The position numbers and the translations under genes were made by a program. From Terriglobia bacterium (GTDB taxonomy: Bacteria; Acidobacteriota; Terriglobia; Terriglobales; Acidobacteriaceae): DNA of 64,000 nucleotides. The DNA is taken from NCBI GenBank assembly GCA_020072815.1, contig JAIQGE010000005.1, forward strand, positions 124,001-188,000, in the 5' to 3' direction. Below, in pieces: positions 942-42,853 of the stretch. Below the pieces are notes generated by a model. It worked only from the letters and a program-made list of their open reading frames with translations, made no database searches and had not been told where the DNA came from. How positions within the stretch are numbered: the first letter of the stretch is position 1; every line of letters begins with the position of its first letter.

Positions 942-1850
942 TCAAACAGCAGGCATCGCGGCAGAATAGCGTATGTTGAATTGTGGGTACTTAGCGATCA
1001 AACCATCTAGTGCTGGAAGGTCGTACTTGGACCACTGATTGCTCAGTGCATACGTCTTGCCCTGACAATTGATCAGGTGTTCATTCGCGCAGATAAATCT
1101 TGTTAGCTTCTCCTCGCTCACCCCGTGATCCTGCGCTGCTGCCCTGAATTCCTCCTCATTCAACGTCCCGTCAAACAGAAGCCAAGTTCCCGATCCAAAT
1201 GCACTCGCTATCTCTTCCGGACTGATCTCTTTAGAAATAAGCTCCTTCACGACCGAGTAGATAAGCCATCGTTTGTACAATGATTTTTCTTCTCGATCGT
1301 TGACGTACAGATCGAACCGAGTCCAGTCCGCACTTCCAGAGGACGGTTGCTTCTCTTCGGCGAGTTTCTTTCTCAATTGAATCTGATACCCAGCTGCTTC
1401 GGGCAAAGGGATTATTTGTTGAACGTCGAGAATTACGCGCCCGGCAATCTCATAAGGCTGCAATTTCACGCACCTCACGTTCAGCCCGGATTCGTTCAGC
1501 CAGAGCACCGAGCTCGTGAGCTCTTTGGCGAACTCGGCCGCGACTAACACGATGTGCACCATTTGACCAAACCTGTCTTCCTGGGGCGCATCCCAACCTA
1601 AGAACTTTAGTATGGACGGTTCGGCACTTTCGGATCTTCCAGACTTTACAAGATACTCGCCGAATGCAGTGACGACTTCACTGAATGTCATGACGCTGAT
1701 CATTGCGGCGTAACGAATGGCCTGTAAATCCATGAAAGCGTTTTCGTCGCGCTTCAGTTCAACCACTACTAAGTTAGCCGACTTATCAATGCACAAGAGA
1801 TCAATCCTGCGACGGCTGTCTTCCCAATTTGTGAATTCTTCGCTGACTAC
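942..1850 (-). pseudogene. 5'-truncated PD-(D/E)XK nuclease-like (NucS/DUF91-type) protein
   Basis: The frame encodes WEDSRRRIDLL followed by VVVELKRD, the Asp and Glu-x-Lys pattern of PD-(D/E)XK nucleases, then a conserved QAIRYAAMIS block and a helical C-terminal half (about 300 residues in all). From memory, homologues of this family carry about 50 further residues before the EEF-x-x-WEDS block. Here, upstream of about 1842-1850, the sequence changes to the antisense of another coding tail (1845-1943). The frame runs to a stop at 1950-1952 with no ATG or GTG. The only plausible start is a TTG at 1796, which would remove the first catalytic Asp. I therefore call it a broken gene. It looks AT-richer than its neighbours, which suggests transfer. 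It could still be translated as a remnant. Confidence 0.6.
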
Positions 1851-38282: not shown

Positions 38283-39668
38283 ATGTTTAAAAAGATTCTC
38301 ATAGCAAACCGAGGCGAGATTGCTCTGCGCGTGATCTGCGCCTGCAAAGAGCTGGGCGTAAAGACAGTCGCCGTCTACAGTGACGCCGACCGCAATTCGC
38401 TGCACGTCCGCTTTGCCGACGAAGCCATCTGCATCGGCCCGCCGCGCTCTTCGGAAAGCTATCTCAACATTCCCGCGGTGATCAGCGCCGCGGAGATCAC
38501 CGGCGTGGACGCCATCCATCCCGGCTACGGCCTGCTGAGCGAGAACGCCAACTTCGCCGAAGTGTGCGAGACCAGCCATATCAAGTTCATTGGGCCGCCG
38601 CCGGAAGTCATCCGCCTGATGGGCGAAAAAGAAAAAGCCCGCCAGGCGATGAAGAAGACCAACGTGCCCATCCTGCCTGGCTCGGAAGGCGTGATCGCCA
38701 CGGCCGACGAAGCCAAGGAATGGGCCAAGCAGATCGGCTATCCGGTGATCGTCAAAGCGTCCGCTGGTGGCGGAGGCCGCGGCATGCGCGTGATCCGCGC
38801 GGAACCGGAACTCGAAAACCTGTTCAACTCCGCCCAGGCCGAAGCCGCCGCCGCGTTCGGCAACGGCAACCTCTACATGGAGAAGTTCATTGAGCAGCCG
38901 CGCCACATCGAGTTCCAGGTGCTGGGCGACGCCTACGGCAAAGTGATCAGCCTGGGCGAACGCGAGTGCAGCATCCAGCGCCGCCACCAGAAGCTGCTGG
39001 AGGAAGCGCCGTCACTGCAGGTGAGCGAAGAGCTGCGCGAACAGATCGGCAAGAAGCTTTCTGAATGCCTCTCGGAAATCGGTTACGTCAACGCCGGCAC
39101 GGTTGAGTTCCTCATGGACGAAGACCGCAGCCTGCACTTCATTGAAATGAACACGCGCATCCAGGTGGAGCATCCGGTCACCGAGATGGTCACCGGGATT
39201 GACCTGGTGAAGTCGCAGATCCTGCTGGCCGCCGGCGCCAAGATGGCGGACATCATCCCCCGCCTGGACCGCAAAGGCCGGCGCGGACACGCCATTGAGT
39301 GCCGCATCAACGCCGAACACCCGGAGAAGTTCACGCCGTCGGCGGGCAAGATCAAGACTTTCCACACGCCCGGAGGCCTGGGCATCCGCATGGACACCGC
39401 CGCCTACGCCGAAGGCGTGATCCCGCCTTATTACGATTCGCTCATCGCCAAGCTCATCAGCCACGGCAAAGACCGCGCGGAAGCCATCATGCGCATGCGG
39501 CGCGCGCTGGAGATGTTCATCGTGGAAGGCATCCATACTACGATCCCGCTGCACCGCCGCATCCTGGCCGACCCCGAGTTCCAGGCCGGCCACTTTGACA
39601 CCAAGTACATGGAACGCTTCCTGGCACGGCTGCAGGAGGAACGGGCGGAAGCGGCTGCGACGGTCTAG
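38283..39668 (+). CDS. accC: biotin carboxylase subunit of acetyl-CoA carboxylase
   Basis: The 461-residue protein is a complete biotin carboxylase: N-terminal [17 protein letters not shown], the [14 protein letters not shown] motif, glycine-rich ATP loop ([11 protein letters not shown]), catalytic [14 protein letters not shown] and C-terminal RINAEHP with the closing domain. It carboxylates the biotin of AccB using ATP and bicarbonate. The ATG is fixed by the conserved N-terminus, yet has no recognisable ribosome-binding site, because a repeat ends 8 bases upstream. A short read-through frame from the repeat (ATG at 38276) could couple translation. Confidence 0.96.
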
Positions 39669-39767: not shown

Positions 39768-39858
39768 AATGGGGAGCCCCACCCCTCCCTATTCATCCCA
39801 ATGATCCCAATAAACAAAGGACTTAGCCACGGTTGATCCCAATCGGGTCCCAATCGAT

Positions 39859-40035
39859 CGGCTGAGAGGTCGCAGCTTTGTTGTCAGGAATGTAAGGCCA
39901 AGGAGCCAAAATGCGGTTAGCTGCTTAAGTTGTCTGTTTTCAATGAACTAGTGGCTTTCACACCCTGAGGCGCAGTACATTATAACGCGCCTTTGATAGC
40001 GAATCAAGAACGAAGTAGTACACCTTGACAGCGCG
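39859..40035 (+). repeat. left long inverted repeat flanking the AIPR cassette
   Basis: Three blocks recur in inverted order and orientation on the far side of the AIPR gene: CGGCTGAGAGGTCGCAG (39859-39875), CACACCCTGAGGCGCAG (39959-39975) and a 39-base block beginning TAGCGAATCAAG and ending CAGCGCG (39997-40035). The sequence between the blocks has diverged. Weaker similarity extends left to about 39830. Confidence 0.8.
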
Positions 40036-40073
40036 GCGTTACCGCGCTGTTCACTTTCGCGCATCTGCTTCGG

Positions 40074-40110
40074 ACAAATTGCCAGTTGCTAGCTGCTAAC
40101 TGCTTTCTTT
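40074..40110 (-). repeat. copy of dispersed GCAAYTRGC-type repeat inside the cassette
   Basis: The reverse strand reads GCAGTTAGC, AGCTAGC and AACTGGC, matching the word pattern found behind rho and at 42038-42076. Confidence 0.5.
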
Positions 40111-40115
40111 TCGTG

Positions 40116-40168
40116 CCGACCCGCCGGGCGGAAGCCCTGGCGGGCTTCCGTATCGCGTCGCGTCGGCC
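40116..40168. other. two-level hairpin
   Basis: An inner stem CGGAAGCC/GGCTTCCG (40129-40136 and 40143-40150) is enclosed by an outer GCCGAC/GTCGGC pair. It has no coding potential. It may be a remnant of a repeat or a structured RNA; I see no named family. Confidence 0.35.
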
Positions 40169-40175
40169 CGAAACA

Positions 40176-40210
40176 AAAAACAAGAGACACCCGGCGAAGA
40201 CGCCGGGTGT
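40176..40210 (-). terminator. terminator-like hairpin, minus orientation
   Basis: ACACCCGGCG (40187-40196) and CGCCGGGTGT (40201-40210) form a perfect 10-bp stem. On the minus strand it is followed by CTCTTGTTTTTTG, a good U-run. No minus-strand gene is seen upstream of it, so it may block antisense transcription into accC or terminate an unseen minus-strand RNA. Confidence 0.5.
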
Positions 40211-40405
40211 CGGGGTTGGGGGTACTTGCCTTCGGTGGAAAAGCGGCCATTTATGGCCGCGTTGAGTCCTTTTAACCTGTCATCTCGAGCGCCCCCCGAA
40301 GGAGCGAATTTGCGACTGAGGGAAGTCGAGAGATCCCGAGGATGTGTCCTCCACCATGCAGCAAGGGTGTTTCCATCGCAAACTATTTCCCCAGTTGTGA
40401 TTGGG

Positions 40406-40435
40406 TTGACCTCAGGCTCCTAGATTTGCTATGGT
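40406..40435 (+). promoter_or_regulatory. promoter for the AIPR gene
   Basis: TTGACC (40406-40411), an 18-base spacer and TATGGT (40430-40435) lie about 75 bases before the gene start at 40512. AAGGAG (40497-40502) then serves as the ribosome-binding site. Confidence 0.5.
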
Positions 40436-40511
40436 TAAAAAGTCGATTGCTGGTGAGGATCGCGGATGCGGTTTCTCACGGGAGGCAACGACTTACAAGG
40501 AGAAAACAAAT

Positions 40512-41726
40512 ATGTCAACCACAATCAGTGGTTCGCAAACACCTTCAAGTGTGGTTCTGTCCTACCAACTGCTTCGGAATACAACTAGCCCTGACGAGAC
40601 CTTAACCGGCGTGAAATCGTTCGTCGCCAATCTTTCCGCTTTCGAAATCTTGAAACTCGGCACCAAGGAAAACTTACGTGCGTATATCGCCGAATATAAC
40701 CCAAAGAAACGGAATCGCGTTCATGATGCGATTCGGAACACCATACAGACCGAACCGCAGCGGTTTATTACCCGCAATAGTGGCTTTGTCATCGGTGCTG
40801 CGGGAATCGATGTTGACGACGGCAAAAAAGAAATTCGCCTAAAGGAGCCGAGCATTTTGAATGGTGCTCAGTCCCAGGGTGAGATTCGCCGCTGGATTCA
40901 AGAAGCCTACGGCGATGATTTGCCCGGCACACCGGAAGATCCGCCCTTTTACGTTCGTGCGGAAATAATCGTTGACCCGGATGCTGACGAGGTTGTCGAG
41001 ACCGCGATTGCTCGTAATACGGCTACTCCGGTCAAGTCCATCTCGCAAGCAGGTGCACGCGGTCACTTAGAGGAGTTGGAGGAAAGCATCCGCAAAGTGC
41101 GGCCTGACATAAAAATCCGCAAAAGTGAAACGGATGAAAATGTTTATGACACCCGCAAGATCCTGCAATATGCCCGATTGCTGATGCCGCTAAGTGTGTC
41201 ACTGAACGATACGCCAGCCGAAAAGCTTCGCCCGTACAAAAATCCTGAACAGTGCCTAACCGAATTTTCAAATTGGTACGAAAACAAAGACAAGAATCTG
41301 GATGCACGACGGAAGTATGAATTTACTGTCCAAATAGCTCCGTACGCGATCGCAGAATATGAGTACTGGGAACGACATGACGGCTGGAACGGGCACCATA
41401 TTTGGGACGAGACCAAGAAGGGCGGGCGGGCTTGTCGGCGCGACAAGAAAGCAGGAAGAATCGTTTGGGTTTCTCCCGGGCTGGTTTTTCCGCTCGTTGG
41501 AGCTATGAGTGAGTTCGTCGAAGAGAAATCACCCCATAAGTGGGCTATTTCAAAACCGGATTTGTTTAAGTCGGACGAGATGATAGCGCGAGCGGTCTCA
41601 CAATTTCGGAGCATAGACAGCGATCCCATGCAAATGGGACGTTCGGCGGGTGCCTATGACGCGTTGCGAATCTATCCTAGAACGCTAGTTGAAGTAATGC
41701 GTGACATGAAGAAAGCCACCAAATAA
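40512..41726 (+). CDS. AIPR-family putative abortive-infection/phage-resistance protein
   Basis: The 404-residue cytosolic protein carries the conserved AIPR segments: FITRNSGFVIGA (about 85-96), SILNGAQSQGEIRRW (114-128) and ETAIARNTATPVKSIS (163-178), corresponding to the F-x-x-x-N-x-G-I, I-x-N-G-x-Q-T and N-x-Q-x-P-V blocks. AIPR proteins were linked to abortive phage infection and often sit near restriction-modification genes; their enzymatic activity is not established to my knowledge. This copy is shorter than typical members (500-600 residues). ATG 40512 has a well-placed AAGGAG. The gene looks AT-richer than its neighbours, stands alone with its own promoter and terminator, and is bracketed by long inverted repeats, all signs of transfer. 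Confidence 0.7.
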   Translation: MSTTISGSQTPSSVVLSYQLLRNTTSPDETLTGVKSFVANLSAFEILKLGTKENLRAYIAEYNPKKRNRVHDAIRNTIQTEPQRFITRNSGFVIGAAGIDVDDGKKEIRLKEPSILNGAQSQGEIRRWIQEAYGDDLPGTPEDPPFYVRAEIIVDPDADEVVETAIARNTATPVKSISQAGARGHLEELEESIRKVRPDIKIRKSETDENVYDTRKILQYARLLMPLSVSLNDTPAEKLRPYKNPEQCLTEFSNWYENKDKNLDARRKYEFTVQIAPYAIAEYEYWERHDGWNGHHIWDETKKGGRACRRDKKAGRIVWVSPGLVFPLVGAMSEFVEEKSPHKWAISKPDLFKSDEMIARAVSQFRSIDSDPMQMGRSAGAYDALRIYPRTLVEVMRDMKKATK

Positions 41727-41751
41727 GTAACTTTATCTAAATCCAACAGTG

Positions 41752-41778
41752 CGCCGGCCCGTAGACAGGCCGGCGTTT
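41752..41778 (+). terminator. terminator after the AIPR gene
   Basis: CGCCGGCC (41752-41759) and GGCCGGCG (41768-41775) form a perfect 8-bp stem followed by TTTCCTGTTG. It lies 26 bases behind the stop codon. Confidence 0.65.
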
Positions 41779-41931
41779 CCTGTTGTGCTCATCTGATTGA
41801 AGTCTCCCAGGCCCCCTTCCTCCCGCTACCTATTCTCGACTTCGCCAACTTCGCTCCTAGGCGCGCCAGTAGTCTGGGCGCAGCATGGCTGTTAGTGACA
41901 CTGCTGACCGAAACCAAACGAGATTACTCGA

Positions 41932-42095
41932 CGCGCTGTAAAGATGTACTACTTCGTACTTGATTCGCTATACGAAATCTGCTATATTGCTGGCTGCGCC
42001 TCAGGGTGTGGAGTACGATAGGTCTTTGAAAAAAAAGCAATTAGCAGCTGGCAGCTAGCAACTAGCAACTGGCCAAATCTGCGACCTCTCAGCCG
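41932..42095 (-). repeat. right long inverted repeat flanking the AIPR cassette
   Basis: This is the reverse complement of the left repeat in the same block order: the 39-base block (41932-41970), the CACACCCTGAGGCGCAG complement (41994-42010) and the CGGCTGAGAGGTCGCAG complement (42079-42095). The two 17-base blocks are exact; the 39-base block differs at a few positions. Together with the left copy it encloses about 1.9 kb. Apart from the repeats and the terminator, nothing coding is seen in 41727-42214. Confidence 0.8.
42038..42076 (+). repeat. copy of dispersed GCAAYTRGC-type repeat
   Basis: It reads GCAATTAGC, AGCTGGC, AGCTAGC, AACTAGC, AACTGGCC after a run of eight A. It lies inside the right inverted repeat, in the gap between its conserved blocks. 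Confidence 0.6.
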
Positions 42096-42121
42096 ATTCT
42101 TGGGTGACATTGGGTGACCTT

Positions 42122-42214: not shown

Positions 42215-42853
42215 ATGAGGCTTCCTTCGCTCTATCCCATCCTCGACTTCTCTTGCTTCGCCGGAAGGCAAGATCCGCTGGCGGCGATGGTGAGCTACGC
42301 CGAAGAGCTTCTCGCTGCCGACGCGAGCATCATTCAATATCGCGACAAGACGTCTGGTCCGCAGACGTTCCTCCGCCACGCCCGCGAACTTCGTCGCGTG
42401 ACGCAAGGCCGAGCAACGTTCATCGTCAACGACCGCCTCGACATCGCCTTGGCCTGCGACGCCGACGGCATTCATCTGGGCCAGGACGATCTTTCTCCCG
42501 TCGCCGCGCGGAAGATTTTCGATCAGATAAAGGATGGGAAAGCCAAGATCATCGGCTTCTCCACCCACAACCTCGTCCAGGTCCGCGAAGCCGACTCGTT
42601 CCCCGTGGACTACATCGCCATTGGCCCGGTGTTTGCGACCGCCTCCAAGGCCAATCCTGATCCGGTGATCGGACTGGATGGCGTGCGTCAGGCGCGCGCG
42701 GCCACAACTAAACCTTTAGTCGCCATTGGCGGCATCACCCGCGAGAATTGCCTGCAAGTCAAAGCCGCGGGGGCGGACTCAGTGGCCGTGATCTCTGACC
42801 TTCTTGAGTCCCCGGCCAAAGCAGTTGCAGCTTTTCTCCGCGTTTTAGGGTAA
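42215..42853 (+). CDS. thiE: thiamine-phosphate synthase
   Basis: The 212-residue TIM-barrel protein has the ThiE motifs: IIQYRDK, FIVNDRLDIALACDADGIHLGQDDL, AIGPVFATASK and AIGGI. It joins HMP-pyrophosphate and thiazole-phosphate to give thiamine monophosphate. The start ATG 42215 matches the usual LYPILD N-terminus. No TPP riboswitch could be recognised upstream, where instead a REP-like element and direct repeats lie. The neighbouring permease starts 18 bases downstream. Confidence 0.93.
   Translation: MRLPSLYPILDFSCFAGRQDPLAAMVSYAEELLAADASIIQYRDKTSGPQTFLRHARELRRVTQGRATFIVNDRLDIALACDADGIHLGQDDLSPVAARKIFDQIKDGKAKIIGFSTHNLVQVREADSFPVDYIAIGPVFATASKANPDPVIGLDGVRQARAATTKPLVAIGGITRENCLQVKAAGADSVAVISDLLESPAKAVAAFLRVLG

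Follow-up and report, generated by a model that had tools for sequence, protein, structure and literature searches.

An AIPR gene between accC and thiE of a Terriglobia bacterium is flanked by two members of a dispersed, rrn-leader-like element family

The signals boxB, boxA and boxC are cis signals in pre-ribosomal RNA (PMC10250234). The BOX, RUP and SPRITE repeats of the pneumococcus are interspersed, nearly confined to one lineage and in some cases transcribed (PMC3049150), and core defence hotspots have fixed core neighbours and changing accessory genes (PMC10250203). AIPR proteins are associated with restriction-modification (PMC3506569). The present analysis concerns a 64,000-nucleotide stretch (the window; positions 124,001 to 188,000, contig JAIQGE010000005.1) from the genome of a Terriglobia bacterium (GCA_020072815.1; 5.29 Mb, 32 contigs), in which an AIPR-family gene situated between the core genes accC and thiE is flanked by two inverted repeats. 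An earlier note on this DNA had proposed that repeat, gene and repeat form a mobile defence cassette. The explanation favoured here, with modest confidence, is that the two repeats are separate members of a dispersed family of rrn-leader-like transcription units, and that foreign genes gather mostly on the untranscribed, upstream side of such units.

The elements share with rrn operon leaders a promoter-like site, a hairpin and a boxA within about 25 nt, and they have the UCAG-loop hairpin and TCTTTGA core of four 16S leaders. They differ in that no rRNA follows, copies are many and the non-coding tail is variable, and by eye their promoter differs from the rrn promoter of a relative (G004). 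BOX repeats are modular, and the elements likewise occur in many intergenic copies with separable heads and tail modules; the likeness to BOX, RUP and SPRITE is, however, one of description, and the elements carry promoter-like and boxA-like signals and are polar with respect to foreign DNA. The accC-thiE spot resembles a core defence hotspot in its fixed neighbours and changing contents, but its length is modest, from 0 to about 4 kb among the species compared, and one repeated RNA-type element frequently borders such spots. The AIPR protein itself recalls the AIPR/AbiU abortive-infection proteins, whereas no other defence gene lies beside it in the accC-thiE spacer. To our knowledge, no known system joins an rrn-leader signal, BOX-type dispersal and a core defence hotspot.

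The dispersed family and its likeness to rrn leaders

The inverted similarity around the AIPR gene, described in the earlier note, was found again in three parts: 39996-40038 against 41929-41971 (91% over 43 nt), 39857-39880 against 42074-42097 (96% over 24 nt) and a third flanking pair of 50 nt at 74%. That the repeats belong to AIPR as a pair was, however, not borne out: each has an outward promoter-like site, the left element core pointing away from the gene towards the 3' end of accC and the right one away from it towards thiE, and the family occurs elsewhere in the same genome, where a search with the left copy returned, besides that copy and the right one in two pieces, 12 further places (15 in all). 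With 71% identity, the left-right comparison ranks 28th of the 136 own-genome pairs, and the two are thus not a matched pair of ends. Aligned on one strand, most copies of the family carry ATGTACTACTTCG, TTGATT-17-TATNAT, the hairpin TGCGCC-UCAG-GGUGUG and then AGATCATTGAAAA or GGTCTTTGAAAA, this last part being missing in two of the first 14 copies (L007, L011).

A covariance model (R1) detected 73 copies in five of nine genomes of the genus, with 10-18 in each. With a second model (R2) and a limit of E<=0.01, four genus genomes yielded 34, 29, 16 and 23 matches, counts which may be low as at most 150 of the approximately 800-1100 candidates per genome were scored. R2 matched 7 of 200 genomes of the taxonomic family, to which this search was confined (stricter filters, 20 candidates scored per genome). 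Six belong to this genus, and the seventh, from another genus, has a single strong copy (L191, G203:C152:3769-3865, E 2e-13) that may reflect transfer or a misplaced contig. Both repeats belong to a family dispersed over intergenic sites and so far seen almost exclusively in the genus. The earlier note had regarded dispersed repeats, combined with vertical descent of the gene at a constant place, as telling against its proposal; the dispersal is seen, whereas the AIPR gene does not appear to be vertically inherited (below).

Rfam gave no match at gathering score in the window, and the weak matches that it gave for the interval and for ten element loci leave the element core uncovered. Among the titles and abstract openings found for boxA (with defence, hotspots, acidobacterial dispersed repeats or CRISPR arrays), BOX-type repeats and boxA/boxB rrn leaders, none describes such a family. 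For five of 13 syntenic pairs (L104/L106, L103/L107, L144/L154, L100/L155 and L034/L148) the counterpart ranks first in its genome, indicating that some copies stay in place; in the other eight it ranks 2 to 16. The right window copy compared with the thiE copy of G004 scores 0.58, rank 16 of 19. The idea that the elements serve as promoters for the gene lying downstream was considered and rejected, the neighbouring genes being in either orientation.

The hairpin covaries across the family. On 38 copies, 96.3% of the cells are paired and 14 are double-changed, against 1.6 in shuffles; on 76 copies, 91.1% are paired and 50 double-changed, against 14.8, and slid controls collapse. The frequent G-U pairs fit an RNA. 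The genome under study gave no match in a 16S search, and leaders of relatives were therefore used. Four relatives of the same taxonomic family (L019-L022) have a 16S leader in which a hairpin with this UCAG loop is predicted and behind it, 182-232 nt ahead of 16S, stands TCTTTGACAA; altogether the loop is seen in four of six leaders compared. When R2 was run over 17 sources (115,788 bases), four known elements and one other match were returned, the latter being the hairpin-boxA part of the L022 leader (model positions 50-89, E 0.14), a weak match alone, yet one at the expected place. The order of promoter, covarying UCAG hairpin and boxA-like motif, matching the 16S leaders of four relatives, suggests that the elements resemble antitermination leaders of the rrn type belonging to non-coding RNA.

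Many cores are preceded by one of two fixed boxes, A or B (21 and 11 copies, respectively, in the loci scanned). A displaced A-like match in the same orientation lies 124 bp upstream of L165 (29.8 bits), and the L084 element has, 1.9 kb upstream, a weak inverted B-like match scoring 16.0 bits where true boxes score 39-45. The idea that these boxes are transposon ends was rejected, because apart from the L165 and L084 matches they sit at the upstream edge of the element in the loci scanned. Behind boxA a modular tail follows. Some tail motifs lie almost exclusively on the transcribed strand: GCGACC-like motifs occur in 27 of 73 tails with none antisense, TTTGTTTKCAA in 29 tails against 2 antisense, and G-runs in 42 against 3. 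One tail type matches the own genome 50 times, in many cases at sites lacking a recognised element. Dispersed tail modules of the TAAGTCnnTTTnnnnTTGGGATGAA..GGGGAGGGG and ATCGCCGTGATCG types were also observed in dozens of copies (e.g. L199-L228), including places without the promoter head.

Some further sequences recur near the elements. Related genes lie approximately 1.0-2.2 kb downstream of five of them (L077, L080 and L088 in the own genome, L151 and L152 in G005), and four downstream proteins match an IS1595-type transposase domain. A family of small basic proteins (about 80-160 amino acids (aa), ending in GxWxxIKxWxPI) is encoded near elements at unrelated places in three species (L079, L137, L147, L095, L136 on the upstream side, and L185:479-748), and a relative (39% over 76 aa) lies just 3' of accC in G004. 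The L079 copy matched no Pfam family.

Foreign DNA on the upstream side of the elements

The DNA on the two sides of the elements differs in guanine plus cytosine content (GC). In 48 of 59 copies, AT content over 1.8 kb is higher upstream than downstream (mean GC 0.527 and 0.569, respectively; sign p 1.2e-6), 15 of the 74 copies having been dropped for less than 1000 bases on one side. The direction is the same in five genomes (12/16, 6/7, 11/13, 12/14 and 7/9), and 46 of 57 copies follow it when the AIPR locus is left out. Genes on the upstream side are likewise lower in GC than those downstream (0.542 vs 0.572, p 1.5e-6; 123 vs 111 genes, AIPR locus and L034 excluded).

Eleven pairs of orthologous copies, recognised by a shared downstream gene and hence biased towards a common downstream side, were also compared. 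In six (L104/L106, L144/L154, L076/L160, L108/L147, L100/L155 and L090/L138) homology begins at or just before the 5' edge of the element and again in the downstream core gene; three of the comparisons had short upstream DNA (L144 890, L138 655 and L100 425 bases). In two pairs that include L094 the homology starts within the element (277 bases of upstream DNA compared), in L102/L097 and L109/L139 the element has no DNA match and the far flank reappears upstream at differing distances, and in L103/L107 homology extends further upstream. Beyond about +130 downstream, sequence is also lost until the core gene resumes. For instance, one element is preceded by a GmrSD gene in G005 (L106) and by a different AT-rich open reading frame (ORF) in G007 (L104). 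That foreign DNA lies on the upstream side of the elements is well supported.

The defence content of this DNA is less clear. Ten hand-picked proteins, nine from upstream genes that were AT-rich or otherwise odd and one encoded next to thiE in G002, were compared with Pfam, yielding GmrSD, an Eco57I methylase, AAA_21 (AbiEii-like), a nucleotidyltransferase and, just above the cut-off, DUF3800; SIR2_2 (the protein beside thiE) and a zinc ribbon fell below the cut-off, and three of the ten had no family. In PADLOC, the 123 upstream proteins matched 153 models, among them a type IIG enzyme (E 0), MTase_II (2.8e-166), Orf5, PDC-M70A and B, HEC-01A and HEC-06, and the 111 downstream proteins matched 25, by appearance mostly regulator, radical SAM and helicase cross-hits, a contrast that is exaggerated since a single AAA protein accounts for 66 of the 153. 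At the accC-thiE spot itself, AIPR in the own genome and the SIR2_2 match below cut-off in G002 are found. An enrichment of defence genes upstream of the elements is thus suggestive but unproven, and weaker than the polarity.

Two side observations were made. A gene that by eye is gyrA-like adjoins a defence-like cluster beside an element in the own genome and likewise the AIPR relative in G235 (L131:13564-18858 and L112:1501-4082), perhaps another shared hotspot. On the upstream side of an element, L102:2646-2716 (-) has a sub-threshold match to the antisense RNA of plasmid R1162 (39.7 bits, cut-off 55).

The AIPR gene and the accC-thiE spacer

The assignment to AIPR made in the earlier note holds: the protein, scanned from 40431, matches PF10592 with 57.4 bits (Pfam cut-off 25, the gathering score), the match spanning profile positions 11-158 of 308 and thus the N-terminal half only, and PADLOC gives a weak match to AbiU (25.3 bits). 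A start at 40512, preceded by aaggaga, is probably better than one at 40431. A search of solved structures returned matches at E ~0.7 only. By family membership alone, AIPR is presumably an anti-phage gene. The gene is also AT-rich, as noted earlier: its GC of 0.500 (mean 0.594) is the second lowest, and its GC at third codon positions (GC3) of 0.529 (0.734) the lowest, among 48 window genes called by an own hexamer script trained on the window, which is not a standard gene finder. In the own genome the AIPR match is confined to the window locus; none of six other genus members compared has one, and matches occur in 10 of 297 other genomes of the order, with a best identity of 37%. None of 91 pattern stretches for AIPR relatives in genome contigs was confirmed. 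The low GC and GC3, the lack of matches in the six genus members and the few in the order indicate that the AIPR gene is most likely foreign, horizontally gained and not vertically inherited. The lowest GC among the called genes (0.495) is that of a gene at 942-1796 (-), encoding 284 aa and by eye DUF91/RecB-like nuclease.

As to the promoter and terminator that the earlier note ascribed to the gene, such sites do exist (Table 1), but promoter-like and terminator-like sites in general are little above shuffles (3 vs 1.3 and 7 vs 3.3, respectively). Between AIPR and the left element, a GC-strong hairpin with a T run at 40186-40211 (-) is a likely terminator separating leftward transcription. 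Every other ORF of at least 80 aa in the interval overlaps AIPR, accC or thiE in a different frame; it is on this overlap that the lack of a transposase is based, the interval ORFs besides AIPR not having been scanned against family libraries.

The position between accC and thiE is as described in the earlier note, and the empty site for which it had proposed to look exists: without the cassette, the two genes are adjacent in G001 (gap ~0 bp), G008 (20 bp) and G003 (157 bp), which supports gain of AIPR at this spacer. In G007 and G005 the spacer holds an aldo-keto reductase-like gene, a small helix-turn-helix-like gene and others (named by eye), and G007 has a single element in it, beside thiE. 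The comparison is informative in the own genome, G001, G003, G005, G007 and G008, G002 and G004 being split by contig ends. In G004 an element lies beside thiE and none within 3 kb on the accC side; G002, with the closest thiE (82%), has neither AIPR nor an element beside it in its 3-kb contig, and G006 gave no thiE match. The accC-thiE spacer is a variable spot, with elements in some species.

Table 1. Features of the accC-thiE interval (positions in the window).
Feature	Position	Strand	Remarks
accC, core gene left of the variable spot	38283..39668	+	PF02786, PF00289, PF02785
Terminator-like end of left non-coding unit, before accC	39772..39789	-	
Tail module TAAGTCCTTTGTTTATTGGGA	39805..39825	-	common to other copies
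Left element core (promoter, hairpin, boxA-like)	39927..40023	-	R1 99.7 bits, R2 86.1 bits (copy in seed of both models)
Left boxA-like AGTTCATTGAAAA	39937..39949	-	comparable to 16S leaders of relatives
Left hairpin TGCGCC-UCAG-GGUGUG	39959..39974	-	sequence and covariation across family
Left promoter-like TTGATT-17-TATAAT	39979..40007	-	10/12 matches
Type A box directly upstream of left core	40024..40062	-	
Promoter-like site of AIPR gene (TTGACC-18-TATGGT)	40406..40435	+	consensus match only
AIPR-family gene	40512..41726	+	start 40512 likely, good Shine-Dalgarno; longer ORF from 40431
Terminator-like hairpin 3' of AIPR	41751..41776	+	poor T run
Right element core	41944..42042	+	R1 98.3 bits, R2 94.3 bits (copy in seed of both models)
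Right promoter-like TTGATT-17-TATATT	41960..41988	+	9/12 matches, with TG
Right hairpin TGCGCC-UCAG-GGUGUG	41995..42010	+	sequence, family covariation; forms in predicted fold
Right boxA-like AGGTCTTTGAAAA	42020..42032	+	
thiE, core gene right of the variable spot	42215..42853	+	PF02581

Competing explanations and biological meaning

In the favoured explanation, each element would run from a promoter-like site, in many copies preceded by a fixed box, through a UCAG-type hairpin and a boxA-like motif into a tail that is modular and non-coding. RNA polymerase, starting at the element, would take up Nus factors at boxA and read outward from AIPR through non-coding sequence, the left unit probably stopping at the terminator-like site at 39789-39772 before accC and the right one probably continuing into thiE. 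A scan of the + strand found no terminator-like site from the right copy as far as thiE, so that this copy may supply the leader of thiE. Cargo would collect on the untranscribed side either through selection against breaking the transcribed side or through targeting, and the accC-thiE spacer of this species would hold one gained AIPR gene between two outward-reading units. The analysis shows the family's dispersal, the covariation of its hairpin, the match to boxA, the polarity and the gain at the accC-thiE spot; transcription, antitermination, the cause of cargo collecting and any role in capture are inferred. It is conceivable, though rather doubtful, that rrn-like antiterminated non-coding RNA genes have spread as directional anchors, with foreign and defence genes turning over upstream while the transcribed side and the core gene are protected, so that immunity genes would land at spots bordered by RNA genes.

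Several results weigh against the favoured explanation. The hairpin was proposed by the analyst, and A2 and A5 were fitted to it; on 76 copies the number of pairs with a double change is 5 against 3.7, a value reached by 18 of 500 shuffles. The hairpin formed in five of seven element stretches folded alone, the left window copy (minimum-energy fold of a 55-nt stretch) and L163 being paired otherwise, and folding of whole tails is no better than that of upstream DNA (mean z -0.78 vs -0.65). The boxA-like pattern is present in 70 of 76 copies, a count biased upward as later copies were picked by models containing boxA, and boxA is absent in L007 and L011. Two 16S leaders of a different taxonomic family within the order, L017 and L018, lack the UCAG hairpin. 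At the spot itself, cargo lies beside thiE without an element in G005, and so does the SIR2_2-like gene of G002 (a 3-kb contig; accC end not found). Finally, in an even draw of 20 upstream and 20 downstream nearest proteins, from the 57 copies having a 120-aa gene on both sides, PADLOC matched four and two, respectively (Fisher p 0.66, or 0.11 once the two downstream matches, judged generic, are set aside).

The elements could also be parasitic modular interspersed repeats, like pneumococcal BOX and RUP, without host function, their promoter and boxA serving the repeat and the polarity reflecting insertion or survival bias. The occurrence of tail modules apart from heads (50 own-genome matches of one tail), the near-restriction to this genus (six of the 7 genomes matched among 200 searched in the taxonomic family) and the copies of G000, which are more alike than some positional counterparts elsewhere, as lineage-specific amplification gives, all agree with this explanation. 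It is nevertheless considered somewhat unlikely, as five of 13 syntenic counterparts are best matches in their genomes, the hairpin covaries and boxA is kept while flanking sequence is lost, and plain parasitism does not predict the GC polarity.

The cassette of the earlier note, a non-autonomous mobile unit ending in inverted repeats, is mostly unsupported and would now be a very improbable explanation. AIPR and both repeats are missing where accC and thiE abut, as expected of such a unit, and close outward pairs are rare: two were seen (the AIPR locus and L147 in G007) against 0.15-0.26 expected (P ~0.01-0.03), in a test on four genomes whose 2.2 kb limit was chosen with the pairs already known and whose expectation varies with the copies counted. 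This scarcity leaves some room for pairing to matter. The ends are, however, not each other's closest (identity and rank above), only two outward pairs (1.9 and 11.7 kb) occur among the 17 elements found by R1 in the window and 14 stretches of up to 20 kb, the G007 spacer has its single element and G004 one beside thiE alone, and no strong inverted A or B box occurs at the far cargo end in the loci scanned, the L084 match being weak. The L147 pair (G007:C88:9345-11661; outward, 2.1 kb apart) encloses a small basic protein and a carbonic-anhydrase-like ORF (by eye), a cargo not evidently related to defence. Alternatively, the 5' edge of the element might be an attachment site at which a recombinase acting in trans repeatedly inserts cargo; in its favour, homology stops at or just before that edge in six of 11 orthologous pairs, the upstream cargo differing and the core side being kept. 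A conserved functional edge beside freely turned-over DNA would look the same, however, and sequence past about +130 is lost before the core gene as well. Neither a recognisable recombinase gene in the interval nor a strong repeated box where the cargo ends was found, which leaves such insertion hardly likely.

The earlier hunch that the repeats mark foreign or defence cargo has been fruitful, in an unexpected form. Inverted repeats flanking a defence gene are not necessarily the ends of a carrier. Interspersed repeats are usually dismissed as parasitic, and this family has a covarying hairpin, a boxA-like signal and a strong polarity. If the favoured explanation is true, the elements would offer a sequence handle for locating variable, perhaps defence-rich, spots in these genomes, and would make it testable whether antiterminated transcription shapes the sites at which acquired genes survive.

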